A stretch of DNA of 48,777 nucleotides. Source: Deltaproteobacteria bacterium (GTDB taxonomy: Bacteria; Desulfobacterota; DSM-4660; Desulfatiglandales; Desulfatiglandaceae). The notes under the pieces were generated by a model. The model saw only the letters and a list, made by a program, of their open reading frames with translations. It had not been told where the DNA came from and did not search any database. The position numbers and the translations under genes were made by a program. Every line of letters starts with the position of its first letter. Within the stretch, counting starts at the first letter, position 1. The stretch is from NCBI GenBank assembly GCA_021737785.1, contig JAIPDI010000042.1, forward strand, positions 1 through 48,777, written 5' to 3'. Positions 6,024 through 27,525 of this stretch are shown piece after piece.

Positions 6024-9847
<3,824 letters not shown>

Positions 9848-9926
9848 ATTCCCTTGGGTATCGGGTATCGGGTGCCTGACGCCTTGGGCCTAACGCCTCG
9901 AGCCTTTTCCCGAAAGGGGGAATTAC

Positions 9927-10316
9927 ATGCGTCTGAAAGTACTGCTTCCCACTGAAGTCCTCCTCGATGAAGAGGTAGGCAAGGTAACCGCAGAGGCGCA
10001 AAATGGATTTTTTTGTCTGCTCCCCGCACATATTGATTTTGTGACGGCCCTGGTCCCCGGACTCCTCTCTTTCGAGTCAAAAGAGGGCGAGGAAATTTTC
10101 GTGGCAGTGGATGAAGGGGTGCTGGTGAAAGAGGGGCAGAATGTATGGGTTTCCACGAGAAACGCCATGCGGGGGACGGAGCTTGGCCGGTTGAGAAAAA
10201 CCGTAGAGGACACATTTAAGGTTCTGGACGATCGGGAAAAGACAGCCCGTTCCGCCATGGCGAAAATAGAGGCCGGCTTTGTCCGGCGCTTTTTGGAGAT
10301 CCAGCGACGGGGGTGA
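9927..10316 (+). CDS. atpC: N-type ATPase epsilon subunit
   Basis: A 129-residue epsilon subunit, part of the central rotor stalk. It starts MRLKVLLPTEVLLDEEVGKV and shows the beta-sandwich pattern LLPAHIDFVTALVPG followed by a helical C-terminus. AAAGGGGG lies upstream of the ATG. The 79-base gap after atpD contains a short GGGTATCGGGTATCGGG tract and CTAACGCCTCGAGCC, relatives of repeats elsewhere in the window. Confidence 0.9.
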   Translation: MRLKVLLPTEVLLDEEVGKVTAEAQNGFFCLLPAHIDFVTALVPGLLSFESKEGEEIFVAVDEGVLVKEGQNVWVSTRNAMRGTELGRLRKTVEDTFKVLDDREKTARSAMAKIEAGFVRRFLEIQRRG

Positions 10317-10329
10317 GGGCCCTTTGTAA

Positions 10330-10620
10330 ATGAAAAAAGATAATCCTAAAGATTTCTCGGAAGAAGTGAGAAAAAAGGAAGCGCGTAAGGTCCAGGCGAG
10401 AAAGGAAGGGGACCGAAGTGTCTGGTTCGGGCTGGGGATGTTCGGCCTCGTGGGATGGTCCGTGGCCATTCCTACCCTGGGCGGCATCGCCATCGGCATC
10501 TGGATCGATAAGACCTGGCCCGGTCCCCGGTCCTGGACCCTCATGTGTCTCGTCATAGGGGTCATCATAGGGTGTGTGAATGCATGGTACTGGGTGAAAC
10601 GGGAGAGCGGGCGTGAGTAA
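10330..10620 (+). CDS. atpQ: N-type ATPase accessory membrane protein AtpQ (AtpI/AtpZ family)
   Basis: The 96-residue protein has a charged N-terminus (KEARKVQARKEGDRS) and two hydrophobic hairpin segments at about 33-57 and 67-88 separated by DKTWPGPRS, the AtpI/AtpZ pattern. AtpI-type proteins assist c-ring assembly and may handle Mg or Ca; AtpQ is the N-ATPase-specific version. Its last codons overlap the start of the antiporter gene by 8 bases, implying translational coupling. Confidence 0.85.
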   Translation: MKKDNPKDFSEEVRKKEARKVQARKEGDRSVWFGLGMFGLVGWSVAIPTLGGIAIGIWIDKTWPGPRSWTLMCLVIGVIIGCVNAWYWVKRESGRE

Positions 10621-11842
10621 ATACGAACTGAATTATCCGCTTGTCATCCTCATGGTCGGCAGCGTCATCTTCCTGGTGATGTTGATCAAATCAGGATTGG
10701 ATCGGACCAGTGTGCCTTCTCTGGTGGGGTTTCTGATCCTCGGTTTCTTCATTCGGCTGGCAGACGATTACCTCGGATTTTTCACCATCGGCTGTGAAGA
10801 GATCTTTGGGTTTTTAGCGCAAATAGGGCTGTTTACGCTTCTGTTTCGGGTCGGGCTGGAGAGCAATCTCCGGGGTCTGCTGGGCCAGCTCCGCCGTGCG
10901 AGCGTCATTTGGATCGCCAATGTGATTATCACCGGCCTTATCGGTTTCGCCACGGCCTTCTACATGCTCCATTACCACTGGGTCGCGAGCCTCGTCATTG
11001 CAACCGCGTTTACCGCCACCAGCGTGGGCATATCCGTGGCCGTATGGGAGGAATCCGGAATGTTGAACACTCCCCGGGGCGAACTCCTGGTCGATGTGGC
11101 GGAAATGGATGATATCTCCGCCGTGGTACTCATGGCCATGCTTTTCGCCGTCCTCCCCAGCCTGAAGTCCGGCTCACCCCCTGACTGGCTGCCAATGATC
11201 TCCAGTGTCCTCGGCCTCTTCTTGATTAAGCTGATCGGGTTCGGAACATTATGTTTTCTATTCAGCCGGTATGCCGAAAAAGGGTTGACCCATTTCTTTC
11301 GAAATCTGGAACCTCCACCGGATCCCATGCTCGTGGTTGTGGCCATAGGACTGATGATTGCCGCCCTGGCAGACCTGCTCGGGTTTTCTCTGGCTATCGG
11401 CGCTTTTTTCGCCGGGCTGGTCTTCAGTCGAGACCCGGACAGTGTAAAGATGGAATCTTCCTTTCTCCCTTTATATGAGCTTCTCAGCCCCTTTTTCTTT
11501 ATTGGAATCGGATTGGCCCTGGACCCCGCCGTTATGGACACAGCCCTGGGAATGGGCGGCATTCTTCTGGTTATGGCCATATTGAGTAAACTGATAGCGA
11601 ACGGCGTACCCATGTTTCTGATGGGCGGGATAGCGGGCGCCCTCCTTATCGGGACGAGTATGGTCCCGAGAGCGGAAATCGCCATGGTGATCATGCACAA
11701 AGGGCTCAGCCTGGGAGAATGGGCGGTCCCTTCCCATGCGTACGCCGCCATGGTGGTGGTCTCAGCCGCCACATGCATCCTGTCCCCCCCGGTGGTGCGA
11801 TCCCTTTTGAATAGCCGGTTTTTGGATGGAGAAGCGCGATGA
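10613..11842 (+). CDS. CPA2-family cation/proton antiporter embedded in the ATPase operon
   Basis: This 409-residue polytopic protein has 11-13 hydrophobic segments over its whole length and the Na_H_Exchanger fold pattern of the CPA2/KefB group. The key pair Asp166-Asp167 in AEMDDISAVVL matches the DD motif of electrogenic Na/H exchangers such as NapA, and an earlier TATSVGISVAVWEE segment fits the crossover-helix region. No TrkA-N domain is present, so it is a bare transporter rather than a full Kef channel. The GTG start overlaps atpQ by 8 bases and its stop overlaps atpR by 4 (ATGA), so it is fully built into the operon. Substrate (Na, Li or K) cannot be read from sequence. Confidence 0.9.
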   Translation: MSKYELNYPLVILMVGSVIFLVMLIKSGLDRTSVPSLVGFLILGFFIRLADDYLGFFTIGCEEIFGFLAQIGLFTLLFRVGLESNLRGLLGQLRRASVIWIANVIITGLIGFATAFYMLHYHWVASLVIATAFTATSVGISVAVWEESGMLNTPRGELLVDVAEMDDISAVVLMAMLFAVLPSLKSGSPPDWLPMISSVLGLFLIKLIGFGTLCFLFSRYAEKGLTHFFRNLEPPPDPMLVVVAIGLMIAALADLLGFSLAIGAFFAGLVFSRDPDSVKMESSFLPLYELLSPFFFIGIGLALDPAVMDTALGMGGILLVMAILSKLIANGVPMFLMGGIAGALLIGTSMVPRAEIAMVIMHKGLSLGEWAVPSHAYAAMVVVSAATCILSPPVVRSLLNSRFLDGEAR

Positions 11843-12111
11843 CGGAGCATATTTCTCATCTCTTATTGGCGTTTGCAGCAGGTGCGGGCATCGGGGCCTT
11901 TTACTTCGGCGGCCTGTGGTGGACGGTCAGGCGACTCGCCACGGATGACCATCCGGCGCGGTTGACCCTGTTAAGCTTACTGGTGCGCACAGGCCTGTCC
12001 CTGGGCGCATTCTATGTGGTCATGGGAGGGGAATGGGAGCGGCTCATGGCTGCGCTGTTGGGCGTCATGGTGATCCGCCTCTTGATGGTTCGGCGGTTGA
12101 GACCGGATTAG
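11839..12111 (+). CDS. atpR: N-type ATPase AtpR membrane subunit
   Basis: This 90-residue protein has three hydrophobic segments (about 6-26, 41-62 and 66-84) and membrane-adjacent arginines, including LLSLLVRTGLSLGAFY, the AtpR hallmark. AtpR is found only with N-ATPases and is thought to interact with the c-ring. The ATGA start overlaps the antiporter stop. The following 200 bases before atpB are repeat tracts. Confidence 0.85.
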   Translation: MTEHISHLLLAFAAGAGIGAFYFGGLWWTVRRLATDDHPARLTLLSLLVRTGLSLGAFYVVMGGEWERLMAALLGVMVIRLLMVRRLRPD

Positions 12112-12116
12112 AGGTC

Positions 12117-12300
12117 GGGGATGAGCAATTTTTTTTCTGACCTCTGGCTTCTGATCTCTGTTCTTTGGGATGTGCGATGTGAGATGTTGTTTCATCTTCC
12201 GCGCTCCGCGTTCCGAGTTCCGCGTTTGGGACTGTTGATTATCAGCTTTCAGCTTTCAGCTTTGAGCTTTCAGCTTTGAGTTTTCAGCTTTGAGTTTTCT
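12117..12300. repeat. Degenerate tandem tracts inside the atp operon (atpR-atpB gap)
   Basis: Three tract types follow one another. They are TCTGACCTCTGGCTTCTGATCTCTG (12137-12161), GGGATGTGCGATGTGAGATGTTG (12168-12190), and about seven units of CAGCTTT or GAGCTTT (12243-12297). The first is nearly repeated between atpA and atpG (15703-15728). Confidence 0.75.
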
Positions 12301-12314
12301 GGAGGTAAGACGAA

Positions 12315-13043
12315 GTGGATTTTATGACCATAAAGGATATCAGCCCGGATCAGGTGATCTTTTGGCAATGGGGACCGGTTTCCATCAACGCGACCATCGC
12401 ATTTACATGGCTGGTGATGGCCCTCATGGTGATCGGTTCCTGGTTGATCACACGGCGGTTGTCAGCGGATGTGCGCCTGTCACGATGGCAGAACCTCCTG
12501 GAAGTCGTGGTGGACGGGATACGAAAGGAGATCCGCGAGATCAGTCAGCAGGAGCCGGACGCTTACCTCTATTTTGTGGGGACCCTGTTTTTGTTCATCC
12601 TGATCTCCAATATCCTCTCCATTATCCCGGGATATGTGGCGCCCACGTCATCCCTCTCCACCACGGCAGGACTGGCCGTGTGCGTATTTGCGGCCGTTCC
12701 TGTTTACGGCATTCTGCGCCGTGGCCTTCGGGGCTATTTAAGGCAATATATCAAGCCCACGCCGTTCATGCTTCCCTTTAACATCATCGGCGAGGTGTCC
12801 CGCACCCTGGCCCTTGCGGTCCGGTTGTTCGGAAATATGATGAGCGGTACAAAGATCGTCGCCATCCTTCTGGCCATTACGCCCCTTATATTTCCCATTG
12901 TCATGCATGCGTTGGGCCTCCTTACCGGCGTGATTCAGGCCTATATCTTTGCGGTGCTCGCCATGGTCTATATTGCATCGGCGACACGGATTCAAGAACA
13001 GAAGAAAGATAACCCGGAACAAGAGAAAGGAGAAGATTCATAA
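12315..13043 (+). CDS. atpB: N-type ATPase a subunit
   Basis: The stator channel subunit, 242 residues with about five membrane helices. The essential helix-4 arginine is Arg170 in ALAVRLFGNMMSG, and a polar C-terminal helix pattern is present. The GTG start is 9 bases after a perfect GGAGG (12301-12305). Its stop shares one base with the start of atpE (TAATG). Confidence 0.93.
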   Translation: MDFMTIKDISPDQVIFWQWGPVSINATIAFTWLVMALMVIGSWLITRRLSADVRLSRWQNLLEVVVDGIRKEIREISQQEPDAYLYFVGTLFLFILISNILSIIPGYVAPTSSLSTTAGLAVCVFAAVPVYGILRRGLRGYLRQYIKPTPFMLPFNIIGEVSRTLALAVRLFGNMMSGTKIVAILLAITPLIFPIVMHALGLLTGVIQAYIFAVLAMVYIASATRIQEQKKDNPEQEKGEDS

Positions 13044-13321
13044 TGGACAGTATTTCGCTAATCGGAATGGCCTCCGTGATCACCGCCGGACTCACCATCG
13101 GCATCGGCGCCATCGGTCCCGCCCTCGGCGAGGGCCGGTCTGTGGCCCAGGCGTTGAGTTCCATGGCCCAGCAACCGGATGAAGCCAACAGGATTACGCG
13201 GACCCTGTTTGTGGGTCTGGCCATGATCGAGTCCACGGCCATTTACGCCTTCGTGGTCTCCATGATTCTGTTGTTTGCCAACCCCTTCTGGGACCATGTG
13301 GTCTCCAAGGCAGGAGGATAA
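13043..13321 (+). CDS. atpE: N-type ATPase c subunit
   Basis: The 92-residue rotor-ring proteolipid has two helices. The ion-binding carboxylate is Glu63 in AMIESTAIYAF, followed by Ser64, Thr65 and Tyr68, as in sodium-binding c subunits. The first helix carries a second carboxylate, Glu30 in GPALGEGRS, where Ilyobacter-type sodium c subunits have Gln. Paired glutamates are a known feature of some N-type c rings. GGAG lies upstream, and the start overlaps the atpB stop by one base. Confidence 0.93.
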   Translation: MDSISLIGMASVITAGLTIGIGAIGPALGEGRSVAQALSSMAQQPDEANRITRTLFVGLAMIESTAIYAFVVSMILLFANPFWDHVVSKAGG

Positions 13322-13324
13322 GCC

Positions 13325-14164
13325 GTGCTCATCGACTGGTTCACCGTCGTCGCCCAGATCGTCAATTTTCTTATCCTGGTGGCGTTGCTCAAATACTTCC
13401 TCTACGACCGGGTCATCCGGGCCATGGACGCGCGCGAGGAAAAGGTCCATTCCCGCCTGGAATCGGCTGAAGAAATGAAAAAGGAGAGTGAAGAGGAGGC
13501 GGAGAACTATCGCCGGAAGAACCGGGAGATTGAAGAGAAACGAAAAGAGATATTGGACAATGCCAGGGAAGAGGCTGAGCATCAGCGTAAGGAACTGACC
13601 CGGCAGGCCCGCAGCGATGTGGAGAACCTGCGGTCAAAGTGGCAGGAATCCGTGCATCGGGAGAAGGCGGCCTTTCTCAGGGAGTTGAAAGAGCTGGCCG
13701 GTCAGCAGGTCTATGCCCTGTCCCGCCGCGCCCTGAGGGATCTGGCCGATGCAGATCTGGAAGAACGGGTTGCCCATGTCTTTGTCCGGGAAATGAGGCA
13801 CGTGAAAAAGGAAGAACGACAAAAGATGGCCGAGGCCGTCAAGGCGGACGGCAACATTGCAACGGTTCGAAGCGGATTCGAAATCCCCGACACCCGACGT
13901 CAAGAGATCACGACGGCCGTTCATGAACTGATTTCAGAGGATGCGGAGGTCAGGTATAAGGAGGATCCTGAGATCATCCTTGGAATTGAACTCAAGAGCG
14001 GGGGAGAGAAAATGGCCTGGAGTCTTGAGGACTATATGCGGGACCTGGAAGACAAGACACGATCGATGTTGAAGCAAGAGGCAAGAGAAGAAGACGCTGA
14101 CGCCGCTGAAGAGAAGAAAGCCAAAGGGGATAAGGGCGGGGGACGAGGAAATGGTGAAGGCTGA
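13325..14164 (+). CDS. atpF: N-type ATPase b-type stator subunit (long form)
   Basis: The 279-residue product has one N-terminal membrane helix (about 6-25) and a long charged coiled coil (about 45-135), then a C-terminal globular part with delta-like features. It is far longer than the usual roughly 160-residue b subunit, and no separate delta gene (atpH) exists in the operon. This matches N-ATPases, in which the b protein probably covers the delta role. The start is GTG three bases after atpE. The 3' end overlaps atpA by 14 bases. Confidence 0.9.
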
Positions 14165-15668
14165 AGCCGATGAGATGGGAGCAGCTCTCCATAACGTGTT
14201 TGATGTTATGGCGGACGCCCTGAAATCCCACCGAACCCGATTGGGGCTTCAGGAGGTAGGCGTGATCAGTTTCCTGGGACCGGGTGTGGTTCGTGTTGCG
14301 GGCCTGCAGGGTGTTCGGTCCCGGGAACTCCTTCGCTTTCCCGGTGAGCGTTTGGGAATGGCCTTTGATGTGGCGCCTCATGAGGCGGGGATTGTACTCC
14401 TTGATGAAAGCGAGGATCTGGGGGCCGGTGATGAGGTGCGGCGCACGGACAGGGTGCTGGACATCCCCGTAGGCGATGACCTGTTGGGACGGGTCATCGA
14501 TGCCCAGGGACGTCCCCTTGACAACCGGGGGCCGATACATGGTTCGAAGCGACTTCCTGTTGAGCGGCCTGCGCATCCCATCATGGACCGTCTCCCCGTC
14601 ACCGTCCCCCTTCAGACCGGGATCAAGGTGGTGGATGCCCTGATTCCCATCGGCCGGGGCCAAAGGGAACTGATCATCGGAGACCGCCAGACAGGCAAGA
14701 CCGCCATCGCCTTGGATACCATCATCAACCAGAAGGACACGGACGTGCTCTGCATCTATTGCGCCATCGGCAAACGCGCCTCGGCCGCGGCAAAGGTCAT
14801 TGCCGATCTGCATCAGGGCGAGGCCATGGACCACAGCATGGTGATGGTGGCCACCGAAGAAGACCCTCCCGGCCTTCAATTTGTCACGCCCTACGCGGCC
14901 ATGACCGTGGGTGAATATTTCATGGAACAGGGGAGGAATGTGTTGGTGGTCTTCGACGATCTCACCCGGCATGCACGGGCATACAGAGAACTCTCCCTTC
15001 TTCTCCGTCGTCCACCCGGGAGGGAGGCCTATCCCGGCGACATCTTCTATATCCATTCGAGGCTCCTGGAACGTTCCACCCATCTTCGCGAGGAACTGGG
15101 CGGGGGGTCGCTGTCGGCCCTCCCGATTATTGAGACAGAGGCCCAGAACATCTCCGCCTATATCCCCACCAACCTGATTTCCATTACCGACGGCCAGATA
15201 TATCTCTCGCCGGACCTGTTCCAGAAAGGGATCCTCCCTGCCGTCGACGTGGGGAAGTCCGTATCCCGCGTAGGCGGCAAGACCCAGCTCAGCGCCTATC
15301 GGGCCGTGGCCGGCGATCTTCGATTATCCTATTCGCAGTTTGAAGAACTGGAGGCGTTTGCCCGGTTCGGCACCCAGTTGGATGAGGATACCCGCAAGAC
15401 CCTGGAACGGGGCCGCCGGGTGCGCGAGGTCCTCAAACAGCCTCAGTATGCCCCCATGGGGGTGGCCGAGCAGATCGCCGTACTGGTGGCCGTGAACGAG
15501 GGGGTATTGGATTCGACCGCCCCTGAAAAGATGGCCGGGGCGGAGAGACGGATACGAGAGGCGGCGACGAAAAACCTGGGCGATCTCTGTCACCGGATCG
15601 AACAGGGTGAAAAAATCAGCCAAAACGATATGGAGGCCCTGAAAGAGACGGCGGCGAATGCGGTTTAG
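14151..15668 (+). CDS. atpA: N-type ATPase alpha subunit
   Basis: The non-catalytic head subunit, 505 residues, with P-loop GDRQTGKT at 177-184. Other family segments include [39 protein letters not shown] and a C-terminal domain beginning [29 protein letters not shown]. The ATG lies inside the end of atpF. A 25-base repeat tract of TCTGACCTCTG type follows before atpG. Confidence 0.95.
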
Positions 15669-15735
15669 AATGGGGATGCAGGATGTGGGATGTATCGTTT
15701 TTTTCTGACCTCTGACATCTGATCTCTGTTTTTCT
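15669..15735. repeat. Degenerate repeat tract between atpA and atpG
   Basis: It contains GGATGCAGGATGTGGGATG and TCTGACCTCTGACATCTGATCTCTG. The second block is almost the same as 12137-12161, so direct copies flank atpB-E-F-A. Confidence 0.7.
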
Positions 15736-15752
15736 CGGTTGGGCACTTGCTT

Positions 15753-16643
15753 ATGGAAACCCTGGAGGAACTGAAACAGCGGATTGAAAGCACCAAAGAT
15801 CTGCAATCCGTGGTGAAAACCATGAAGGCCCTGGCCGCGGTCAGGATCCGGCAGTTCGAACGGGCTGTGGAATCCCTCGGCGATTACAATCAGACCGTGG
15901 AGATGGCCCTTCGCGTTGCCCTTCGGGACCGTCCCCACATGACGGTGGGGGCCCGGGCCGGGCCGAAGGATCAACTGGGGGCGGTGGTGTTCGGCTCCGA
16001 CCAGGGGATGTGCGGGCAGCTCAACGATCAGATCGTCGCACACGCGCTCGATGAAATGGGACGATTTTCTCAGGTGGCGCATCAAAATCGGATGATCATG
16101 GCCCTGGGTGAGCGTGTCAGGGGGAGGCTTGAGGATGCGGATCAGCCGGTGGATGTGGCATTGTCCGCGCCCGGCTCTGTGAGCGGCATAACACCCCTGG
16201 TCCAGGACATTCTGATGACCATTGAGGGTTGGCACAAAGAGCGGGGCCTGGACCAGGTATTTCTGTTTTACAGTAAACACCTCTCCGGCGCATCCTATCG
16301 GCCCCACACCATGCACCTGTTGCCGGTGGACAGGACATGGCTCTCGAAGGTGCGGGAAAAACAGTGGCCCAACCGATGTCTCCCCATGTTTACCATGGAC
16401 TGGGACCCCCTGTTTTCGGCATTGATCCGGCAGTACCTCTTTGTTTCCCTTTTTCGCGCCTTTGCAGAATCCCTGGCCAGCGAAAACGCCAGTCGTCTGG
16501 CCTCCATGCAGGGGGCGGAACGGAACATCCGGGACCAGATGGAAGAACTCAATATGCAGTACCACCAGCAGCGGCAGATGTCCATTACAGAGGAACTGCT
16601 GGATATTGTGTCCGGATTCGAGGCCATGGAACATGATGCGTAA
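15753..16643 (+). CDS. atpG: N-type ATPase gamma subunit
   Basis: The rotor shaft subunit. The N-terminus ETLEELKQRIESTKDLQSVVKTMKALAAVRIRQFE is the expected coiled coil, and the C-terminus FAESLASENASRLASMQGAERN pairs with it. I use the ATG at 15753 (296 residues); a TTG two codons earlier is possible. No strong ribosome-binding site is visible, and the gene is separated from atpA by repeats. It is the last gene of the ATPase set. Confidence 0.92.
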   Translation: METLEELKQRIESTKDLQSVVKTMKALAAVRIRQFERAVESLGDYNQTVEMALRVALRDRPHMTVGARAGPKDQLGAVVFGSDQGMCGQLNDQIVAHALDEMGRFSQVAHQNRMIMALGERVRGRLEDADQPVDVALSAPGSVSGITPLVQDILMTIEGWHKERGLDQVFLFYSKHLSGASYRPHTMHLLPVDRTWLSKVREKQWPNRCLPMFTMDWDPLFSALIRQYLFVSLFRAFAESLASENASRLASMQGAERNIRDQMEELNMQYHQQRQMSITEELLDIVSGFEAMEHDA

Positions 16644-16789: not shown

Positions 16790-17728
16790 ATGTCCATATT
16801 GACTTTGACCATGAACCCCTGCATCGACAAGAGTTCAAGCATCGAAAATGTGGTGGCCGAACGGAAATTGCGTTGTGAAGAACCCGTCTATGAGCCTGGG
16901 GGCGGGGGCGTTAATGTCTCCCGGGCCGTCCATAAGCTCGGCGGGACATCCACGCTCATCTATCTCTCAGGAGGTCAGATAGGCCGAATGCTGGATATGC
17001 TGCTGGATCAGGAAGGGATAGTCTGCCAGAGGATGCCGATCGAAGGCATGACCCGCGAAAACCTCATGGTGTATGAGAAGGCCACCGGCCAGCAATACCG
17101 GTTCGGAATGCCGGGGCCGATGGTGGTTGAAGAAGAATGGAAGCAGTGCCTTGGAAGCATATCGGCGGTGGATCCCGCACCCGAATATATGGTGGCCAGC
17201 GGCAGTCTTCCTCCCGGGACCCCGGATGATTTCTACGGGCGGCTTGCCCGTCTGGCAAAAGACCGGCATATCAGGCTCATTCTGGATACCACCGGAGAGC
17301 CTCTCCGTATTGCGGTGGAGGAAGGCCTCTACATGATAAAACCCAATTTCCGCGAACTCGAGGCCCTGTCGGATACAAAGATCGATCAGGAATCGTGTCA
17401 GGTGACCCTGGCCGAGCAGATTGTTCAAAAGGGACAGAGCGAAGCGCTTGTAGTCTCTCTCGGGGCGGCAGGTGCGCTCCTGGTCTCGAAAGACGGCTGT
17501 GAACGCCTGCGCGTCCCCACCGTACCGATCAAGAGTAAAGTGGGGGCAGGAGACAGCATGGTGGGCGGCATGGTCCTTGCGCTGGAACGTGGCGAGCCCC
17601 TCCTGAATGCCGTCCGATTCGGTATGGCGGCAGGCGCCGCCGCCGTCATGACGCCGGGAACTGAACTCTGCCGAAGGGAGGATACGGAAAGGCTCTATGA
17701 GGAAATGCTTTCGGAAGGACCTTCATAG
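16790..17728 (+). CDS. pfkB: 6-phosphofructokinase II (PfkB/ribokinase family)
   Basis: It phosphorylates fructose 6-phosphate with ATP. The 312-residue protein carries the family signatures EPGGGGVNVSRAVHKLGG (about 36-52) and SKVGAGDSMVGGMVLAL with the catalytic base Asp255. The C-terminus RFGMAAGAAAVMTPGTELCRREDTERLYEEM closely follows the E. coli PfkB pattern; tagatose-6-phosphate or 1-phosphofructokinase activity remains possible. AGGGAGGG precedes the ATG. It converges on the zinc-finger/BON gene with 7 bases between stops. Confidence 0.88.
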   Translation: MSILTLTMNPCIDKSSSIENVVAERKLRCEEPVYEPGGGGVNVSRAVHKLGGTSTLIYLSGGQIGRMLDMLLDQEGIVCQRMPIEGMTRENLMVYEKATGQQYRFGMPGPMVVEEEWKQCLGSISAVDPAPEYMVASGSLPPGTPDDFYGRLARLAKDRHIRLILDTTGEPLRIAVEEGLYMIKPNFRELEALSDTKIDQESCQVTLAEQIVQKGQSEALVVSLGAAGALLVSKDGCERLRVPTVPIKSKVGAGDSMVGGMVLALERGEPLLNAVRFGMAAGAAAVMTPGTELCRREDTERLYEEMLSEGPS

Positions 17729-18524: not shown

Positions 18525-18853
18525 TTGGTTACTCCTTTGCTGTCAGGAACTGGTGTCAACCATAAACTGTCTTTCGAATTCTTTTATCCTCTCCATCGGG
18601 AAATGGGAATAGGGTCCATGCGGTATTTCTCCCGCAAAGGAGGATGGGTCCAAAGGAAAATCGGATATGCCGGCACCGAGGCTTGATAGGGCTGTAACTA
18701 CGGTGGGGGATGGGGTGTCCGGATATACAGGATCTACCCCATTTACTTATTCCCGGGGTGAAGTAAACTCCACAAACAAGACTATACCCTATTTTAAAGA
18801 ATGCCTTGATTCTGTTGGCTGTCCGGCGCGGTGAAGCGGACAAGGGAGAACTC
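18525..18853. other. Intergenic region between divergent genes
   Basis: It separates the zinc-finger/BON gene and the acyl-CoA synthetase gene and should hold both promoters. A hairpin GCGGTATTTCTCCCGC (about 18619-18634) and a 30-base motif shared with 25402-25433 (at 18721-18748) are the only structures I see. Confidence 0.5.
18721..18748 (+). promoter_or_regulatory. Shared upstream motif GGAT..TATAC.GGAT.TA.CCCATTTACTT, copy 1
   Basis: The sequence GGATATACAGGATCTACCCC then ATTTACTT lies about 105 bases before the acyl-CoA synthetase start. A close variant lies upstream of the DUF5752/TreT operon. Whether it is an operator, promoter or repeat remnant is unknown. Confidence 0.4.
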
Positions 18854-21547
18854 ATGGGACTTTTCAATCTTGATAAAATATTCAAACCGGAATCCGTGGC
18901 GGTAATAGGGGCAAGCCCCAGTCAGGGGAGCATCGGCTTCGCCCTAATGGAAAATCTGACCGGGGGCGGATACGAGGGCCGGATCGTCCCGGTAAACCCC
19001 AAGCATTCCGAGATCATGGGCATCAAAACATACCCCGCCCTCTCCATGGCAAAACAGGATGTGGACCTTGCAATCATCGCAACACCGATCGCCACGGTGC
19101 CGGAAATTGTCAAGGAGTGCGTGGAAACGGGGGTCGGGGGCGCCATTATTATTTCCGCCGGCGGGAGGGAGACCGGACCGGAAGGTCTCGAGTTGGAGAA
19201 GGAAATTGACAGAGAGGCCAGAAAAGGCGGGCTTCGGATTATCGGCCCCAACTGCATGGGCATCATACGTCCGGATCGGAACCTGAACGCCAGTTTTGCC
19301 GCTCACATGGTGCCAAAAGGGAACCTTGCCTTTATTTCCCAGAGCGGCGCCATCTGCTCCGCCATGCTCGATCTCTCTTTGAAAGAGCACATGGGGTTCA
19401 GATATTTCGTGAGCATCGGCGCCATGCTGGATGTGGATTTCGGAGATTTGATCGATTATCTGGGAATGGATCCTGAAGTAAAAAGTATTCTCCTCTACAT
19501 CGAAAGCCTGACCCATTTTCGCAAATTCATGAGTGCGGCGCGTGCGGTGTCGCGTGTAAAACCGATCGTGATTCTGAAAGCCGGAAAAGGAAAGGCAGGG
19601 GCCCGGGCCGCAGCATCCCATACCGGCGCCATGGCCGGAGAGGATACGGTGTACGAGGCGGCATTTAAACGGGCGGGAGCGGTGAGGGTCGATACCCTGC
19701 AGGATTTCTTCGACTGCGCAGAGTTGCTGGCCAAACAGCCCCTCCCTTCGGGACGACGGTTGGTGGTGATTACAAATTCAGGCGGTCCGGGCGTAATGGC
19801 AGCAGATGCCATAGAAGAATATGGACTGGAACTCAGCCCTTTGAGCCGGGAAACCATGAACGGGCTCAATAAAATCCTGCCGCCCCACTGGAGTCACGGA
19901 AATCCCATCGATATCCTGGGGGATGCTACGGCCGAGCGGTATGAAAAGGCGGCCGAATGCTGCTTCAAGGCCGGGGAGATCGACGGCATGCTCGTCATTG
20001 TCAATCCTCAGGCCATGACCAATCCCACCGAGGTGGCCCGGACCCTGGGAAAGGGCCTGCAAAAGAGATCTTTCCAGGTATTTACCGCCCTCATGGGGGG
20101 CGCGGACGTGGAGGAGGGGAGGCATGTCCTTAACAGGGCGGGCATTCCCACATATGATACCCCGGAACGTGCCATCCGTTCTTTCATGTTTCTCGACAAA
20201 TATGCACGGAACCTGAAACTGCTTCAGGAGATCCCCTCCAAACTTTTACGAGATGTTGCTGCGGACGAAGATTCCGCCAGGGAGGTGATCGGGAAAGCGC
20301 TGGAAAAGGGGGAATGCCTTCTCACGGAAACCGAATCCAAACGGCTCCTCTCTTCCTACGGGATCCCGGTCAACCGGACGGAGACGGCGGGATCACCGGA
20401 GGCGGCCGTCGGTTTGGCCTCAGAAATAGGATATCCCGTGGTGATGAAGGTGCTCTCTCCGGATATCTCTCACAAAACCGAAGCCGGAGGGGTGTTGACG
20501 GATCTTGGAAGCGACCAGGAAGTCCGCGAGGCCTATGAAAAGATCATGAACAGTGCCCATGCATACGATCCTGAGGCCGAGATTCTGGGTGTGACGCTCC
20601 AGTCCATGATAAAAAATCCCGATGTGGAGCTTCTGGTGGGCGCGGTCAAGGACCCGAATTTCGGGCCGGTGATCGTCTTCGGTCTGGGGGGCATCTTTGC
20701 CGAAGTCCTCGGCGACAGGGAGATGGGATTGCCGCCGCTGAACCGGACACTTGCGCGAAGGCTCATGGAACCTACAAAGGCCTTTACCCTTCTCAACGGA
20801 TTTCGCAACATCCCCCCGGCCGACATGTCCCTCCTCGAAAAGTTGATCGTCTGTCTTTCTCATCTTTTGGTGGATTTTCCGGAGATTGCGGAGTTGGACA
20901 TGAATCCGGTAATTGTAAAGGATGGAAAGCCCTATGCTGTGGACGCCCGGGTTCTGATAAAAAAATCCGATACGCCTTCCCCCCTCCACCTGGTGATCAG
21001 CCCCTACCCTGAACAGTATGAATTCCAGGAGGTAACCTCCGGGGGCGTGGAGATCTTTATTCGACCCATCAGACCCGAAGATGCCTCCCTCCTCTTGGAT
21101 CTCTTCGACAACATGTCCATGAAAAGCCGGTATCAGCGCTTTTTCATACCGATGAAATCCCTGTCCAATGATCTCCTGATTCAACTGACCCAGATCGATT
21201 ACGATCGTCATATCGCCCTGGTGGCATTACGTCGGGAAGCGGGGGAAGATGAAATGCTGGGAGTGGCCCGGGCAATCGCCGGTCCGGATAATGAGGAAGC
21301 GGAATTTTCCGTGGCGGTGGGAGATGCCTGGCAGGGAAAAGGGATCGGCAGGAAACTTCTCCGGACGTGCCTTCGCGTGGGAAAGGAATACGGGATCAAA
21401 ACCCTTTATGGGACTGTTCTTGCAGAAAACACCCAGATGCTGGGACTGGCCCGGGAATTCGGGTTTAAGGTGACCAGGGGCAAAGGCGGCAATGAATATC
21501 AGCTGTTTATCGACCTGGAGCAGTATCAGGAATCGGCCACTGAGTAA
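18854..21547 (+). CDS. ADP-forming acyl-CoA synthetase fused to a GNAT acetyltransferase domain
   Basis: The 897-residue protein joins an alpha domain (CoA-binding Rossmann fold from residue about 5, then succinyl-CoA-ligase-like folds) and a beta ATP-grasp domain (about 480-700). A C-terminal GNAT domain follows at about 735-890 with the acetyl-CoA loop WQGKGIGRKLL. This is the architecture of the lysine acetyltransferases Pat/PatZ/YfiQ. Those usually have a degenerate synthetase part, but here the phosphorylatable His256 in AAASHTGAMAG is kept. It may therefore still make ATP from acetyl-CoA or other acyl-CoA, or sense them. The ATG is preceded by GGGAGAA; the in-frame codon 48 bases earlier has no such site. 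Confidence 0.88.
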   Translation: MGLFNLDKIFKPESVAVIGASPSQGSIGFALMENLTGGGYEGRIVPVNPKHSEIMGIKTYPALSMAKQDVDLAIIATPIATVPEIVKECVETGVGGAIIISAGGRETGPEGLELEKEIDREARKGGLRIIGPNCMGIIRPDRNLNASFAAHMVPKGNLAFISQSGAICSAMLDLSLKEHMGFRYFVSIGAMLDVDFGDLIDYLGMDPEVKSILLYIESLTHFRKFMSAARAVSRVKPIVILKAGKGKAGARAAASHTGAMAGEDTVYEAAFKRAGAVRVDTLQDFFDCAELLAKQPLPSGRRLVVITNSGGPGVMAADAIEEYGLELSPLSRETMNGLNKILPPHWSHGNPIDILGDATAERYEKAAECCFKAGEIDGMLVIVNPQAMTNPTEVARTLGKGLQKRSFQVFTALMGGADVEEGRHVLNRAGIPTYDTPERAIRSFMFLDKYARNLKLLQEIPSKLLRDVAADEDSAREVIGKALEKGECLLTETESKRLLSSYGIPVNRTETAGSPEAAVGLASEIGYPVVMKVLSPDISHKTEAGGVLTDLGSDQEVREAYEKIMNSAHAYDPEAEILGVTLQSMIKNPDVELLVGAVKDPNFGPVIVFGLGGIFAEVLGDREMGLPPLNRTLARRLMEPTKAFTLLNGFRNIPPADMSLLEKLIVCLSHLLVDFPEIAELDMNPVIVKDGKPYAVDARVLIKKSDTPSPLHLVISPYPEQYEFQEVTSGGVEIFIRPIRPEDASLLLDLFDNMSMKSRYQRFFIPMKSLSNDLLIQLTQIDYDRHIALVALRREAGEDEMLGVARAIAGPDNEEAEFSVAVGDAWQGKGIGRKLLRTCLRVGKEYGIKTLYGTVLAENTQMLGLAREFGFKVTRGKGGNEYQLFIDLEQYQESATE

Positions 21548-22240: not shown

Positions 22241-24952
22241 ATGACGAATAATTCAGAACACTCCTTGAAAGCACCCTGGGCATCCCCCTGGGAAGAGGTG
22301 GCCGAGGCGCTGAGGGTTTCTGCGGATAAAGGCCTGGGGCCTGCGGAGGTGAAAAAGCGGCGGAGCCGGGCCGGACCCAATCTTCTCAAGACCACCCCTA
22401 AAAAATCCGCATGGGTGATCCTGTGGAACCAGGGCAAAAACCCCATTGTGGCCCTCCTGGTGCTGGCTGCGGGCCTTTCATTTTCCTTCGGCCGCTTGCT
22501 GGAAGGCGTCTCCATCGCCATAGCCATTGTGATCAACGGTCTCATCGGGTTTTTTACGGAACTGAAGGCGGTCCGGTCTATGGAGGCGCTTCATCGCATG
22601 GGTCACGCCACGGCCAAGGTCCTCCGGGAAGGAGAACTTCGGGAAATCCCAGGAAGGGATCTCGTCCCCGGCGACATCGCTCACCTGGAGGCCGGAGACG
22701 TGGTCTCCGCCGATCTGCGGCTTTTTGAGGCATCCAGACTTCAGACCAATGAGTCTTCCCTCACGGGTGAATCCATGGCAATTTCCAAAGAGATCTCCCA
22801 GCTGGAGAAGGACACGCCGTTGGCCGAACGACGCAACATGGTCTTTAAGGGGACTGCGGTAACCATTGGCTCCGGACGGGGAATCGTGACCGCCACGGGG
22901 ATGCAGACCGAGTTGGGCAGCATCGCCTCTATGGCCCAGGAGGCTGAAGAGGAACTGACCCCCCTGGAGAAACGTCTCAACAGCCTGGCCTACCGGCTCA
23001 TCTGGATTACCCTGGCCATTGCGGCATTATTGATCGTCACCGGTCTGATTGCTCAAAGGGAGATTCTCCTCATTATCGAGACATCCATCGCCCTTGCCGT
23101 TGCGGCCATTCCCGAGGGGCTGCCGATTGTCGCCACGGTTGCCCTGGCCAGGGGGATGTGGCGGATGTCTCGCCGCAATGCATTGATAAACCGCCTCTCT
23201 GCCGTGGAGACCCTGGGCGCCACAAACATCATATGTACCGACAAGACGGGTACGTTGACGGAAAACCGAATGACCCTTTCTCAGCTCCTCCTGCCGTCAA
23301 AACATCGGAATGAAATAGAGGAAATCGAGATCCGGGGGACAGCGGGGGAAGATTTCCGATTTCTGTCAGGCGATCAGGAAGTGGATCCTTCCGATGATAC
23401 TGTATTACGGGAGGCCCTGCAGGTGGGGGTCCTCTGTAACAATGCGGACCTGGGGCGGCAATCCTCCGGAGAAAACGGGGACGGGGTGGGGGATCCGATG
23501 GAGATTGCGCTCCTCAAAGCCGGCCTGGGCGCGGGATGGCCCCGGGCCGACCTGCTCCAGTCCATGCCCGAGGAACGGGAAGAGGCCTTTGACCCGGACG
23601 TTATGATGATGGCCACATTTCATAAGGTCAACGGCCAATATCTCGTGGCCGTGAAGGGGGCGCCCGAGGCGGTGCTGGAGGTGTGCACCCGAATGCGAAC
23701 CGGAGAGGGAGATACGGAACTGAACAAGGAAACGCGGGAAAGATGGCTGGATGCCAACGGACGGATGGCCGAAGAAGGTCTCAGGGTACTGGCTGTGGCA
23801 ACCAAGCATACGGAATCGAGGGATGAGAAACCGTATGAGAATCTCGTCTTCCTCGGCCTTCTCGGCCTCGTGGACCCGCCGCGGAAAGATGTGGCGGGCG
23901 CTATTCAGGCCTGTCGGGAGGCCGGCATCCGCGTAATCATGGTTACCGGGGATCAGCCGGTGACGGCGAGGTATATCGGTTCCGTGCTGAACCTGACGGA
24001 CGAAGATGGAACCGGGGTGATCCACGGTAAAGATATAGGAGATCCGGATGAGCTTTCCCAGGATCAACGCAATAGACTCTTACAGGCGTCTATTTTCGCC
24101 AGGGTGAGTCCAAAACAGAAGCTGGACCTGATTGCGCTTCATCAGAAAAACGGCGCTATCGTGGCGATGACAGGCGACGGGATTAATGATGCGCCTGCCC
24201 TTAAGAAGGCGGACATCGGCGTGGCCATGGGGAGGCGGGGGACACAGGTGGCACGGGAGGCCGCAGATGTTGTATTGAAGGATGACGCGTTCAAGTCCAT
24301 TGTGGTGGCTGTTCAGCAGGGACGGGCCATCTTCGACAACATCCGGAAATTTATTCTGTTTCTCCTCTCAGGCAACGTGGGCGAAGTGATGATCGTCGCA
24401 TTTGCACTGCTGGCCGGGGCGCCTCTGCCCCTCCTGCCGTTACAGATCCTTTATTTGAACATGATCGGCGACGTCTTTCCTGCCCTGGCGCTGGGTGTGG
24501 GGGAAGGGGATTCTTCTAAAATGAACCGCCCGCCCCGCGATTCAAAGGAGCCGATTCTTACCCGCGGGCATTGGATCGCCATCGGAGGATACGGGTTCTT
24601 GATTTCGGCATGCGTGCTGGTCGCCTTTTACATCGCACTTGCCTCGCTGGAGATGGACACGGACAAGGCAGTAACCGTGTCTTTTCTAACCCTGGCATTT
24701 GCCAGGCTCTGGCACGTGTTCAACATGAGAGATAAGGGATCCCGTCTCATACGCAACGACGTCACACGGAATCCCTTTGTGTGGGGGGCATTGGGACTCT
24801 GTTCTGCGTTGCTGGTTGCAGCCGTCTATCTTCCAGGCATTTCCACAGCACTCCAGATGGCGCCCCCCGGCATATCGGGATGGGGGGTCATCTTCGGGAT
24901 GAGCCTGATCCCCCTTTTCATCGGACAGACCGTGAAACAAATAAGGAGCTAG
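22241..24952 (+). CDS. P2-type cation-transporting ATPase (Ca2+-ATPase-like)
   Basis: A 903-residue P-type ATPase with N-terminal cation-ATPase domain, actuator motif TGES at 175-178, M4 motif PEGLP at 291-295 and phosphorylation site Asp334 in DKTGTLT. The hinge motif GDGINDAPAL is at about 646-655, and a C-terminal bundle of six helices follows. Ca2+-site residues of SERCA are largely kept (Glu in PEGLP, Asn and Glu in GNVGEV, Asn and Asp in NMIGD), but the site-I Thr is replaced by Gly. Calcium export is likely, other cations possible. The start has no clear ribosome-binding site and lies just after repeat sequence. Confidence 0.9.
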   Translation: MTNNSEHSLKAPWASPWEEVAEALRVSADKGLGPAEVKKRRSRAGPNLLKTTPKKSAWVILWNQGKNPIVALLVLAAGLSFSFGRLLEGVSIAIAIVINGLIGFFTELKAVRSMEALHRMGHATAKVLREGELREIPGRDLVPGDIAHLEAGDVVSADLRLFEASRLQTNESSLTGESMAISKEISQLEKDTPLAERRNMVFKGTAVTIGSGRGIVTATGMQTELGSIASMAQEAEEELTPLEKRLNSLAYRLIWITLAIAALLIVTGLIAQREILLIIETSIALAVAAIPEGLPIVATVALARGMWRMSRRNALINRLSAVETLGATNIICTDKTGTLTENRMTLSQLLLPSKHRNEIEEIEIRGTAGEDFRFLSGDQEVDPSDDTVLREALQVGVLCNNADLGRQSSGENGDGVGDPMEIALLKAGLGAGWPRADLLQSMPEEREEAFDPDVMMMATFHKVNGQYLVAVKGAPEAVLEVCTRMRTGEGDTELNKETRERWLDANGRMAEEGLRVLAVATKHTESRDEKPYENLVFLGLLGLVDPPRKDVAGAIQACREAGIRVIMVTGDQPVTARYIGSVLNLTDEDGTGVIHGKDIGDPDELSQDQRNRLLQASIFARVSPKQKLDLIALHQKNGAIVAMTGDGINDAPALKKADIGVAMGRRGTQVAREAADVVLKDDAFKSIVVAVQQGRAIFDNIRKFILFLLSGNVGEVMIVAFALLAGAPLPLLPLQILYLNMIGDVFPALALGVGEGDSSKMNRPPRDSKEPILTRGHWIAIGGYGFLISACVLVAFYIALASLEMDTDKAVTVSFLTLAFARLWHVFNMRDKGSRLIRNDVTRNPFVWGALGLCSALLVAAVYLPGISTALQMAPPGISGWGVIFGMSLIPLFIGQTVKQIRS

Positions 24953-25019
24953 AGGCGTCGCATAGGGCGTTTCCAATCTTCTGATTAATAGGACTGGAGA
25001 ACGGAACCGGAGATATGAA

Positions 25020-25292
25020 ATGGACCTCGTCATCAGAGCTTTGATAGACCGCTTGTCAGACAAAGGTCTGCCCATCGACGTCATCCCTGCCTGCATCCGG
25101 AATGCACTTCAGATCATTGCCGTGGATCCCTGGATCCCCCTTGAGGAACTGAAAGCGGAGATGCAGTCCCTGGGCTGGGATGATTTGGATCTGGATGAAT
25201 GCACTTTTCAGCTCATTATGGCCACTTTGGATCCGGGTTCCGACGATTATTCCGCGCTCAGGTTGTCAATACATGTGCAGCAACCATGCTGA
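25020..25292 (+). CDS. Small acidic hypothetical protein
   Basis: A 90-residue acidic protein, mostly helical by eye, with no membrane segment or metal motif (MDLVIRALIDRLSDKGLPID at the start, DDLDLDECTFQLIMATLDPG near the end). CCGGAG lies about 9 bases before the ATG. It follows the P-type ATPase by 67 bases and could be co-transcribed. I do not recognise it. Confidence 0.55.
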   Translation: MDLVIRALIDRLSDKGLPIDVIPACIRNALQIIAVDPWIPLEELKAEMQSLGWDDLDLDECTFQLIMATLDPGSDDYSALRLSIHVQQPC

Positions 25293-25609
25293 CCATCGGA
25301 AGAACAAGGAGAGCACACCACGGTTCGCCTGATGCGCCATTCTTGAATTTCAACGGTGCGGTAACCAAGCGCTACGCCTGTTTTTCCATACATAAAGGGG
25401 TTGGATCGTATACGGGATTTAACCCATTTACTTTGTCAATATAAGCTGTTATACTTTTCTTCGACATTCAGAATTCGAGGATTCTGCAGACTGAGCGTTC
25501 AAGGGTGAAGCGGTTTATGACCACGGCACGCATGACACAGGGCGGGTCACCCCATCCGCCTGAGCCGGGTCGGTTCGATGACCAATCTACAGGATAGAAG
25601 GAAATTACC
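25293..25609. other. Leader region of the DUF5752/TreT operon
   Basis: No gene is seen. It contains the motif shared with the acyl-CoA synthetase leader (25402-25433) and a perfect hairpin GGCGG-GTCACCCCAT-CCGCC at 25541-25560. Confidence 0.5.
25402..25433 (+). promoter_or_regulatory. Shared upstream motif GGAT..TATAC.GGAT.TA.CCCATTTACTT, copy 2
   Basis: TGGATCGTATACGGGATTTA followed by ACCCATTTACTT matches 18721-18748 over almost all positions, with a two-base insertion. It lies about 180 bases before the DUF5752 gene. Confidence 0.4.
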
Positions 25610-26281
25610 TTGAGTAATCCCGAAATACCTCCCTTTTCCATCAAGGATTGTGCATTAATTGCCATTGCCTCCGGAAAAAGGGCTCAAAATTTGCGAGAAC
25701 TGCGAGAGCACTTGCGGTCTATCGATCCCGGAAGCATCTATTATCATTTCTGGGGCGGTTTGCTGAGGCCTCGTTTTAATGATCCCGAATACCATAACGA
25801 CTTTGCCCATTGGGTGGCCCACAGCCTTAACAACAAGAGCCTTGCGGAAAGGCTGGCGGTTATAGATCCCACGACATTCGGATCAATGGAACTGATCAGA
25901 ACGGAACTTATCGAAACAATCGAAGACAGCCTGGATGAAATCGCCTTTCCCACCTGGGCCAAAAGAGATGATCAATTCGAGTTCATTCAGCACCAGATTG
26001 TCGTCTTTGATACCAGGATGACAGCCAACACCCCGGAAGATTTCCTCCATATCATGCCCGGGATATCCGTCGGATCGATATTTTACCATTTTATCGATGC
26101 GAGACGCCGAAGTCTCAACTCTCTGGATGATTTTCAAAATTGGCTGATGAATTCCGGAGAGGAGTATCAGGTGCTATGCCGGATGATCAATGACATATGT
26201 CCTTATTTTACCTCCTTGAGAAAATTGCGTGAGGAGCTGGCAAAGGTTTTCGAGACCTATTTTCAGAAAGAGGAATTGTGA
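25610..26281 (+). CDS. DUF5752 family protein
   Basis: The 223-residue cytoplasmic protein has two similar halves, each with a pattern like IDPGSIYYHFWGGLLRPRFNDPEYHNDFAHW (about 38-68) and PGISVGSIFYHFIDARRRS (about 144-162), so it looks internally duplicated. This matches DUF5752, which is found beside glycosyltransferases of the trehalose synthase type. The start is TTG, supported by GAAGGAAA seven bases upstream; there is no better in-frame start. Its stop overlaps the next gene (GTGA), so the two are translationally coupled. Molecular role unknown. Confidence 0.8.
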   Translation: MSNPEIPPFSIKDCALIAIASGKRAQNLRELREHLRSIDPGSIYYHFWGGLLRPRFNDPEYHNDFAHWVAHSLNNKSLAERLAVIDPTTFGSMELIRTELIETIEDSLDEIAFPTWAKRDDQFEFIQHQIVVFDTRMTANTPEDFLHIMPGISVGSIFYHFIDARRRSLNSLDDFQNWLMNSGEEYQVLCRMINDICPYFTSLRKLREELAKVFETYFQKEEL

Positions 26282-27525
26282 AAGAGAGCAGCCTGCTTGA
26301 AAAATATGCAGAGATCGCGGGGAGGGATGTCATTGAGCATTTACGGCAGCTGGCCCGGCCTTTGAAAGGACTCCGTCTGGTGCACGTTAACGCGACCCGG
26401 ATGGGAGGAGGTGTTGCCGAAATATTGCAGAAGATGGTGCCCCTGATGCAGGAGCTTGGCATCGAAACCCGGTGGGAAGTCATCACCGGCGAAAGCGCCT
26501 TTTATCAATGTACGAAGAGCTTTCATAATGCCATCCAGGGGAATCAGGTCAGTATACCTGAAAGTTATCTCACGATATACGAAGAGACCAATGCAGAAAC
26601 AGCCGAAAAGCTGAGAGAGCCATTGGAAGACGCCGATTTTGTTATTGTTCACGACCCGCAACCCGCTGCCTTGATCAAACATTTTCCAAACCGCAGGGGG
26701 AAATGGGTCTGGCGATGCCATGTGGATGCCAGCAAGCCCTTCAGGCCGGTGTGGCGATATCTGAGCAACTTCGTCTCAGAATATGATGCAAGCATATTTT
26801 CCATCTCAAGTTTCGCCCAGCAACTCCCGCACCCTGCATATATTATCGCCCCGAGCATCGATCCGCTGCACGAGAAAAATATTCAATTATCCCAGGAAGA
26901 AATCAGAGCCGTACAGAACCGGTTTGAAATCGACCCTGAAAGGCCGATGATTCTCCAGGTTTCTCGTTACGATCGATTTAAGGATCCCCTCGGCGTCATT
27001 CACGCGTTTCAGCTTGCAAAGAAATTTGTTGCCCCCTTGCAGCTGGTACTTGCGGGAGGAGGGGCCACAGATGATCCCGAAGGGGAAGAAGTCTTGCAGG
27101 AGGTCCGATTGGCTGCCGTGGATAATCCGGATATTCACGTGCTCCTCCTGCCCGGGGACGCATTCCGTACGATCAACGCCCTTCAACGCTGCGCAGACAT
27201 TGTCATACAGAAATCCACTAAAGAAGGTTTTGGGCTGACGGTCACCGAAGGCATGTGGAAGAAAAAACCGGTGATAGGAGGGGATACCGGGGGGATTCGG
27301 TTACAGGTGGTAAATCATTACACGGGGTTTTTGGTAAACACGCCTGAAGGTGCCGCGCTCCGGATTCGATATCTTTTCCACAACCGAGAGATCATGGACA
27401 GGATCGGAGAGACGGCAAAGGAGTTTGTACGTGAGAATTTCCTCATTACACGGCAATTAAGGGAATATCTGACCTTGATTCTCGCCCTTTTCAACGGTAA
27501 ATCGGAACGCATTGAACTCGATTAA
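26278..27525 (+). CDS. treT: TreT-like trehalose synthase (GT4 glycosyltransferase)
   Basis: The 415-residue GT-B glycosyltransferase begins its fold at LRLVHVNATRMGGGVAEIL, the glycine-rich loop typical of TreT. It contains VHDPQPAAL, the nucleotide-sugar site LQVSRYDRFKDPLGVI, and QKSTKEGFGLTVTEGMWKKKPVIGG with the GT4 EX7E acidic pair. TreT makes trehalose from NDP-glucose and glucose in one step. Coupled to the DUF5752 gene by a 4-base overlap with a GTG start. The specificity is inferred from family resemblance; a related glucosyltransferase is possible. Confidence 0.8.
   Translation: MKESSLLEKYAEIAGRDVIEHLRQLARPLKGLRLVHVNATRMGGGVAEILQKMVPLMQELGIETRWEVITGESAFYQCTKSFHNAIQGNQVSIPESYLTIYEETNAETAEKLREPLEDADFVIVHDPQPAALIKHFPNRRGKWVWRCHVDASKPFRPVWRYLSNFVSEYDASIFSISSFAQQLPHPAYIIAPSIDPLHEKNIQLSQEEIRAVQNRFEIDPERPMILQVSRYDRFKDPLGVIHAFQLAKKFVAPLQLVLAGGGATDDPEGEEVLQEVRLAAVDNPDIHVLLLPGDAFRTINALQRCADIVIQKSTKEGFGLTVTEGMWKKKPVIGGDTGGIRLQVVNHYTGFLVNTPEGAALRIRYLFHNREIMDRIGETAKEFVRENFLITRQLREYLTLILALFNGKSERIELD

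Follow-up and report, generated by a model that had tools for sequence, protein, structure and literature searches.

A predicted NapA-type antiporter gene between atpQ and atpR is a recurrent, optional part of N-ATPase operons

N-ATPases are widespread and laterally transferred, and whether they serve as Na+ pumps or H+ pumps is still debated. The founding paper on these enzymes, Dibrova et al. 2010, reportedly gave their operon as atpDCQRBEFAG. The same canonical order is given in the pertinent passages of Schulz et al. 2017 (PMC5376962). In the stretch of DNA analyzed here (48,777 nt, referred to as the window), the N-ATPase operon follows this order with one extra gene, encoding a cation:proton antiporter, between atpQ and atpR (Table 1). 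Does its position make the antiporter a component of the ATPase, a partner that works beside it, or an independent protein that shares its expression? The arrangement is a real, conserved, and optional operon variant, and it looks like a recurrent add-on to the N-ATPase operon rather than a new machine made by fusion.

An extra gene in a complete N-ATPase operon

Seven subunits encoded in the window (beta, epsilon, a, c, b, alpha, and gamma) score higher than the curated "alternate F1F0" models require, and AtpR scores above its own curated cut-off. The start of atpD was taken as the first ATG in frame (alternative start, 8462). The beta subunit of an F-type ATP synthase is encoded on another contig of the same genome (C3:31792-33183, 822 bits); with a normal F-type ATP synthase present, the N-ATPase is free for a role as a pump.

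Table 1. Features of the N-ATPase operon and its surroundings in the window
Feature	Position	Strand	Evidence or remark
N-ATPase operon, whole	8423-16643	+	JAIPDI010000042.1, Deltaproteobacteria bacterium (Desulfatiglandaceae), 48,777-nt window
Phosphoenolpyruvate synthase (ppsA), directly upstream of atpD	6024-8408	+	TIGR01418, 1168 bits
atpD, beta	8423-9847	+	TIGR03305 (alt_F1F0_F1_bet), 835 bits, cut-off 752
atpC, epsilon	9927-10316	+	TIGR03166, 150.6 bits, cut-off 100.1
atpQ, small membrane protein	10330-10620	+	TIGR02230, 141 bits, cut-off 46.7; PF09527
Overlap of atpQ stop and antiporter start, 8 bases, GTGAGTAA	10613-10620	+	Sequence
CPA2 cation:proton antiporter, NapA-like, GTG start, 409 aa	10613-11842	+	PF00999, E 1.8e-39
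Overlap of antiporter stop and atpR start, 4 bases, ATGA	11839-11842	+	Sequence
atpR	11839-12111	+	PF12966, 89 bits; TIGR03165, 81.5 bits, cut-off 55.5
atpB, a subunit	12315-13043	+	TIGR03306, 359 bits, cut-off 302
atpE, c subunit, two-carboxylate Na+ motif	13043-13321	+	TIGR03322, 155.5 bits, cut-off 130.9; motif comparison
atpF, long b subunit	13325-14164	+	TIGR03321, 277.6 bits, cut-off 224.7
atpA, alpha	14151-15668	+	TIGR03324, 825.7 bits, cut-off 750.5
atpG, gamma	15747-16643	+	TIGR03323, 351 bits, cut-off 282
PfkB-family sugar kinase, downstream of atpG	16790-17728	+	TIGR03168, 293 bits
P-type cation ATPase	22241-24952	+	P-type ATPase models
Two trehalose-synthesis-like genes (TreT-like, 26278-27525; OtsA-like, 27756-29495)	26278-29495	+	NF041139 and TIGR02400, below cut-offs

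The initial annotation had placed a 409-residue antiporter between atpQ and atpR with overlaps of 8 and 4 bases, and the coordinates agree. The 8-base overlap with atpQ is seen in 9 of 12 antiporter-bearing operons, and the 4-base ATGA overlap is also found on an Acaryochloris plasmid and around an antiporter remnant in the locus L006. GGGAG, just 5' of the antiporter's GTG and within the final codons of atpQ, may act as a ribosome-binding site. It is very likely that the antiporter is co-transcribed with the N-ATPase genes. The overlaps had also been read as a sign of special coupling, a claim that we rejected: in several operons lacking the antiporter (e.g., L034 and L035), it is atpR whose start overlaps atpQ by these 8 bases, so nothing in this overlap is peculiar to the antiporter. 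The 8-base junction belongs to the operon and serves whichever gene follows atpQ.

These junctions bear on one explanation of the locus, namely that the antiporter would bind the interface of the a and c subunits, or AtpQ and AtpR, and either hand ions directly to the rotor or aid assembly. Its gene is flanked by those of two small membrane proteins with accessory roles, co-translation is frequent among overlapping genes, and the arrangement is conserved across phyla. That atpR uses this overlap in operons without the antiporter speaks against such a physical module, as do the distribution and relocations described below.

The otherwise tight operon contains one odd spacer, the 203-base gap between atpR and atpB (12112-12314), which holds tandem repeats of 7 and 14 bases: TCAGCTTTGAGCTT in 4.1 copies (12242-12299) and TTCCGCG (12197-12226). 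A search of the + strand inside the operon found no promoter-like site, which is weak evidence in either direction.

Identity of the antiporter

The antiporter matches PF00999 (Na_H_Exchanger) with 136 bits over residues 20-398, nearly its full length. Its closest solved relative by sequence is NapA from Thermus thermophilus (E 2e-25 for the sequence alone and 2.5e-40 with a family profile). The AlphaFold model of the antiporter (pLDDT 83.6, pTM 0.84) contains two crossing broken helices, typical of CPA2-type exchangers, with breaks at residues 136-138 and 350-352. Alignment of the model with NapA (5bz2) gave a Z score of 42.1 across 373 residues (VIA-align), and the next fold after NapA was KefC (Z 33).

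Counting the GTG codon as residue 1, the Asp166-Asp167 pair reported by the initial annotation is present. It aligns with the Asp-Asp pair of NapA, and K326 aligns with the lysine in TM10 of NapA. The description of a CPA2 antiporter built into an N-ATPase operon thus holds for this locus, where a NapA-type Asp-Asp protein lies in a complete operon. Residues D166, D167, K326, R353, and E355 are invariant among 20 relatives. The clade has two additional invariant acids, D161 and E164, which neither NapA nor four other CPA2 proteins of this and related genomes possess. By sequence, these residues define a CPA2 subclade with the signature D-x-A-E-[ML]-D-D, and they could alter the choice of ion. 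The Gemmatales locus L029 was left out of the residue comparisons because several of its genes contain frameshifts, probably from sequencing error.

The antiporter scores 116.9 bits against the curated CPA2 model TIGR00932, missing its cut-off of 238.3. That subfamily model does not cover the antiporter's subclade; sequence and fold place the protein beside NapA. We predict that the gene encodes an electrogenic Na+(Li+)/H+ antiporter of the NapA type.

Distribution, loss, and relocation of the antiporter gene

One scan of public genomes, biased to near relatives, yielded 21 relatives of the antiporter with 42-55% identity. The initial annotation had suggested looking for an antiporter between atpQ and atpR in other operons. 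Eleven further genomes carry this order, bringing the total to 12 in six phyla with the window genome included; since the arrangement recurs so widely, it is not a peculiarity of this genome. The carriers are the window genome, G167, and G383 in the Desulfobacterota; Rivularia (L013), KSB1 (L015), Loosdrechtia (L017), Gemmatales (L029), and Rhodohalobacter (L027); Tenderia (L022), in which the gene after the antiporter is not matched by AtpR; two gammaproteobacteria (L030 and G1483); and plasmid pMB02 of Acaryochloris sp. "Moss Beach," with overlaps of 8 and 4 bases and ppsA upstream. Among them are two named strains, Acaryochloris sp. "Moss Beach" and Rhodohalobacter sulfatireducens WB101.

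Within N-ATPase operons, the antiporter is an optional gene. AtpR was found in 59 of 395 sampled Desulfobacterota genomes, with an antiporter in the operon in 3 of the 59 and none there in the other 56, and 1 of 39 plasmids carrying an N-ATPase-like a subunit had the antiporter in the operon. The arrangement is rare in cyanobacteria, being present in 1 of the 292 genomes of a cyanobacterial draw, solely the genome on which the draw was centered. In the genus and family of the window genome, the entire N-ATPase operon is mostly missing.

We then considered how often clade antiporters and N-ATPases occur in the same genome. In the Desulfobacterota draw, a clade antiporter (E below 1e-50) was detected in five genomes, four of which also encode AtpR (Fisher P = 0.002, relatedness ignored). 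An N-ATPase beta subunit is encoded in 16 of the 23 genomes with a clade antiporter that were examined. Of the 14 among these whose antiporter lies away from the operon, 7 have an N-ATPase, compared with 59 of 395 in the background (P = 0.003, relatedness ignored). Later draws of other groups added nine clade members, only one of them (G1483) in a genome with an N-ATPase. Across the unselected draws, excluding center genomes, 9 of 13 clade antiporters occur in genomes lacking an N-ATPase, so the antiporter does not depend on this enzyme; one such genome, G446, is small and incomplete and counts as weak evidence. Pooled by identity to the window antiporter, an N-ATPase is present in 16 of 20 genomes at ≥50% identity and in 4 of 15 below 50%. 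Near relatives of the window antiporter thus show a strong tie to N-ATPases, more distant clade members only a weak one, and an exclusive association of the clade with N-ATPases was rejected.

The many stand-alone clade members in genomes without an N-ATPase lend some weight to mere co-regulation, in which the operon would be a salt-stress expression unit containing any cation/proton exchanger, K+ exchangers included, with independent activities. The fold comparison, in which the K+/H+ exchanger KefC comes next after NapA, and the acids D161 and E164, which set the clade apart, also fit this reading. Co-inheritance with Na+-type ATPases across phyla suggests a shared ion instead, and we regard mere co-regulation as unlikely.

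Evolutionary distances between antiporters correlate with those between ATPases (19 genomes, r = 0.68, permutation P = 2e-4), also when cross-phylum pairs alone are used (r = 0.58), which fits transfer of the two as a unit. In the ATPase tree, antiporter-bearing operons are scattered, a pattern explained most simply by six changes, at least three of which are forced by well-supported branches. The antiporter tree is poorly resolved and intermixes in-operon and stand-alone copies. A single clean origin of the in-operon antiporters was accordingly discarded, and the two trees do not discriminate between a single ancestral insertion with later losses and repeated insertion. The shared junction, the congruent distances, and a deletion scar favor an old insertion followed by losses and transfer.

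This scar is in L006 (genome G053), a locus with the window's gene order. A remnant frame of 60 codons follows atpQ (L006:1298-1480) with both overlaps kept; it retains the 27 N-terminal antiporter residues and finishes with TLLKRWPRKGADT, which resembles the family C-terminus LLxRWPQ. Judged from its sequence, the remnant is possibly an in-frame internal deletion of the antiporter that preserved both overlaps. No other close antiporter was found in G053. In G275, a 17-codon frame (MIEAEMN...) lies between atpQ and atpR, and the antiporter of G383 starts similarly (MIEAETN...); an intact antiporter is located beside ppsA on the same contig, about 18 kb upstream of atpD. The antiporter adjoins the operon in divergent orientation in L012 and lies 4.5 kb upstream of it in L011. 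Two short open reading frames after atpQ in cyanobacteria, MNEKLSC and MNEKFSY, look like scars and were set aside as too short to support a claim.

Loss of the antiporter with the ATPase genes left whole indicates that it is not required for keeping the operon. The initial annotation's proposal of a single functional unit made up of antiporter and ATPase is therefore hard to maintain: most N-ATPases lack the gene, many clade antiporters stand alone, and operons that lost the antiporter remain intact. For a physical module, the 56 of 59 sampled Desulfobacterota N-ATPases that manage without the antiporter and the several copies relocated out of an operon whose ATPase was kept are equally adverse. 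These losses and relocations speak against an obligate ATPase-antiporter complex, and we consider a physical module of any kind highly improbable.

Coupling ion, possible function, and comparison with known systems

To which ion do these N-ATPases couple? The c subunit in the window contains GEG and ESTAIY. Among c subunits that could be read, all 10 from antiporter-bearing operons have the full Na+ motif (E32, ESTxxY), compared with 20 of 32 from operons lacking the antiporter, the remainder having mostly ESI (Fisher P = 0.02, relatedness ignored). The second glutamate and ESTAIY in antiporter-bearing operons speak for a Na+ pump, judging by sequence motifs. According to the relevant passages, the N-ATPase of Burkholderia pseudomallei is H+-coupled, contrary to prediction (PMC5376962); its c subunit has Thr62-Met63 after the glutamate, whereas the window-type motif has serine-threonine. 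A related N-ATPase, that of Aphanothece, is described in passages of two papers as a Na+ pump that confers salt tolerance (PMC8949462, PMC5706428).

The replacement of EST by ESI occurs in one branch of Desulfobacterota N-ATPases, and in some the second carboxylate is Q or M (loci among L037, L038, L045, L046, L050-L054, and L059), possibly reflecting a change of ion. One Desulfobacteraceae genome, G439, contains two distinct N-ATPase operons (L065 and L087) as well as a normal ATP synthase beta subunit.

The neighborhood of the operon offers further context. PpsA is also encoded directly upstream of the Acaryochloris plasmid operon (58% identical) and beside the displaced antiporter of G275 (79% identical). 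Adjacency of ppsA and the N-ATPase thus recurs in the window and on the plasmid, and in G275 ppsA adjoins the displaced antiporter (L064, L060). A PfkB-type kinase (58% identical) lies downstream of the operon in Loosdrechtia L017, and a P-type ATPase (51% identical) lies upstream of it in Rhodohalobacter L027. Downstream of the kinase, the window also encodes a DksA-like protein and an acyl-CoA ligase of the NDP-forming type (18806-21547); the part of the ligase beyond about residue 720 falls outside the ligase models and, by eye, looks like an acetyltransferase-like domain. From their gene content, the surroundings resemble a stress island geared to salt and to shortage of energy, and the P-type ATPase with the TreT-like and OtsA-like genes (22241-29495) possibly forms an osmotic-stress island beside the operon.

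Electrogenic NapA-type exchangers normally expel Na+ at the cost of H+ entry. We consider it probable that the antiporter was recruited into a transferred Na+-pumping operon for cooperative Na+ extrusion, working alongside the pump without being one of its parts. The N-ATPase would hydrolyze ATP, export Na+, and charge the membrane inside-negative; because the ATPase moves positive charge out, a potential would build for an electrogenic exchanger. The antiporter would then spend this potential, or that from respiration, to move more Na+ out and H+ in. The net result would be ATP-driven Na+ export with H+ uptake, giving salt tolerance and acidifying the cytoplasm under alkaline load, with a fallback if ATP or respiratory potential ran short. 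Co-expression would follow from co-transcription and from the overlap with atpQ, making a physical complex unnecessary. We infer that two Na+ exporters with different energy sources behind one promoter are the most economical reading, and antiporter and N-ATPase together probably represent a transferable salt- and pH-stress kit, two machines that expel Na+ together.

Evidence for cooperative extrusion comes from the fold, the gene order in 12 genomes, the uniform Na+ motifs, the distance correlation, the L006 scar, the relocated copies, and the salt-stress surroundings. Against it stand the general lack of the operon in the genus and family, the 9 of 13 antiporters in genomes without an N-ATPase, and the absence of D161 and E164 from NapA. 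A more specific version is electroneutral ATP-driven Na+/H+ exchange, in which the rotary pump would make the potential and a dedicated D161/E164 antiporter would spend it, so that Na+ leaves twice and the cytoplasm is acidified without respiration, the two-part kit moving between phyla as a unit. This version is possible, though we hold it only tentatively.

The initial annotation had instead envisaged an ATP-driven interconverter that exchanges the pumped ion for the other one. In such a scheme the antiporter would oppose the pump by letting Na+ back in and H+ out, so that the pair would pump H+ in place of Na+ or link the two gradients as a unit. Both proteins plausibly act on Na+, given the Na+-type residues of the c-ring, and they are co-encoded in six phyla; interconversion is thermodynamically possible wherever a cell has both proteins. 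The proposed direction of exchange is disfavored, because an electrogenic NapA-type exchanger normally moves Na+ the same way as the pump; with its Asp-Asp pair and Lys326, the antiporter would need to work in opposition to the membrane potential. The genome's own F-type enzyme serves H+, and the operon remains intact after loss of the antiporter. An interconverter is thus quite improbable; we judge it less likely than two parallel exporters, and a physical complex the least likely.

With cooperative extrusion as the preferred reading, the arrangement yields a testable hypothesis, that such cells handle salt and alkaline load jointly, and the named strains open the way to experiments. That six phyla carry an antiporter in the same operon, in this sample always alongside Na+-type c subunits, supports a Na+ role on genetic grounds. 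The analysis also delimits a CPA2 subclade by its pair of additional invariant acids close to the ion site.

The window operon resembles known N-ATPase operons in its nine genes in canonical order, a two-carboxylate c subunit with ESTxxY, a long b subunit, the lack of a delta gene between the others, and its status as a second ATP synthase besides the F-type; it differs in its tenth gene, the antiporter. ProAD, as described in passages of its paper (PMC11738941), detects N-ATPases by the order beta-epsilon-X-X-a-c. As exactly two X genes are expected, the antiporter variant may be missed or trimmed there, and other operon finders may likewise overlook it if they demand that epsilon and a be separated by two genes and no more. 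Another close match is the plasmid-borne Na+-ATPase of Acaryochloris marina (PMC8949462); plasmid pMB02 of the related strain "Moss Beach" shares the ten-gene order, ppsA upstream, and the overlaps. Apart from the map in Figure 3B, the passages that a text search of that paper turned up describe the ATPase genes and do not discuss the inserted antiporter. More broadly, the passages of the N-ATPase literature covered by our search contain no mention of it; Dibrova et al. 2010 lay outside that search and may hold an earlier remark, so priority is not proven.

Among solved exchangers, NapA (PDB 4bwz, 5bz2) shares the fold, the Asp-Asp pair, the TM10 lysine, and a PRxE motif with the antiporter. 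It differs in that the two are only 24-25% identical, the antiporter clade has the invariant D161 and E164 shortly ahead of this pair, and NapA is encoded alone. KefC (PDB 8bxg) has the same CPA2 fold, and unlike the antiporter it carries a cytosolic regulatory domain.
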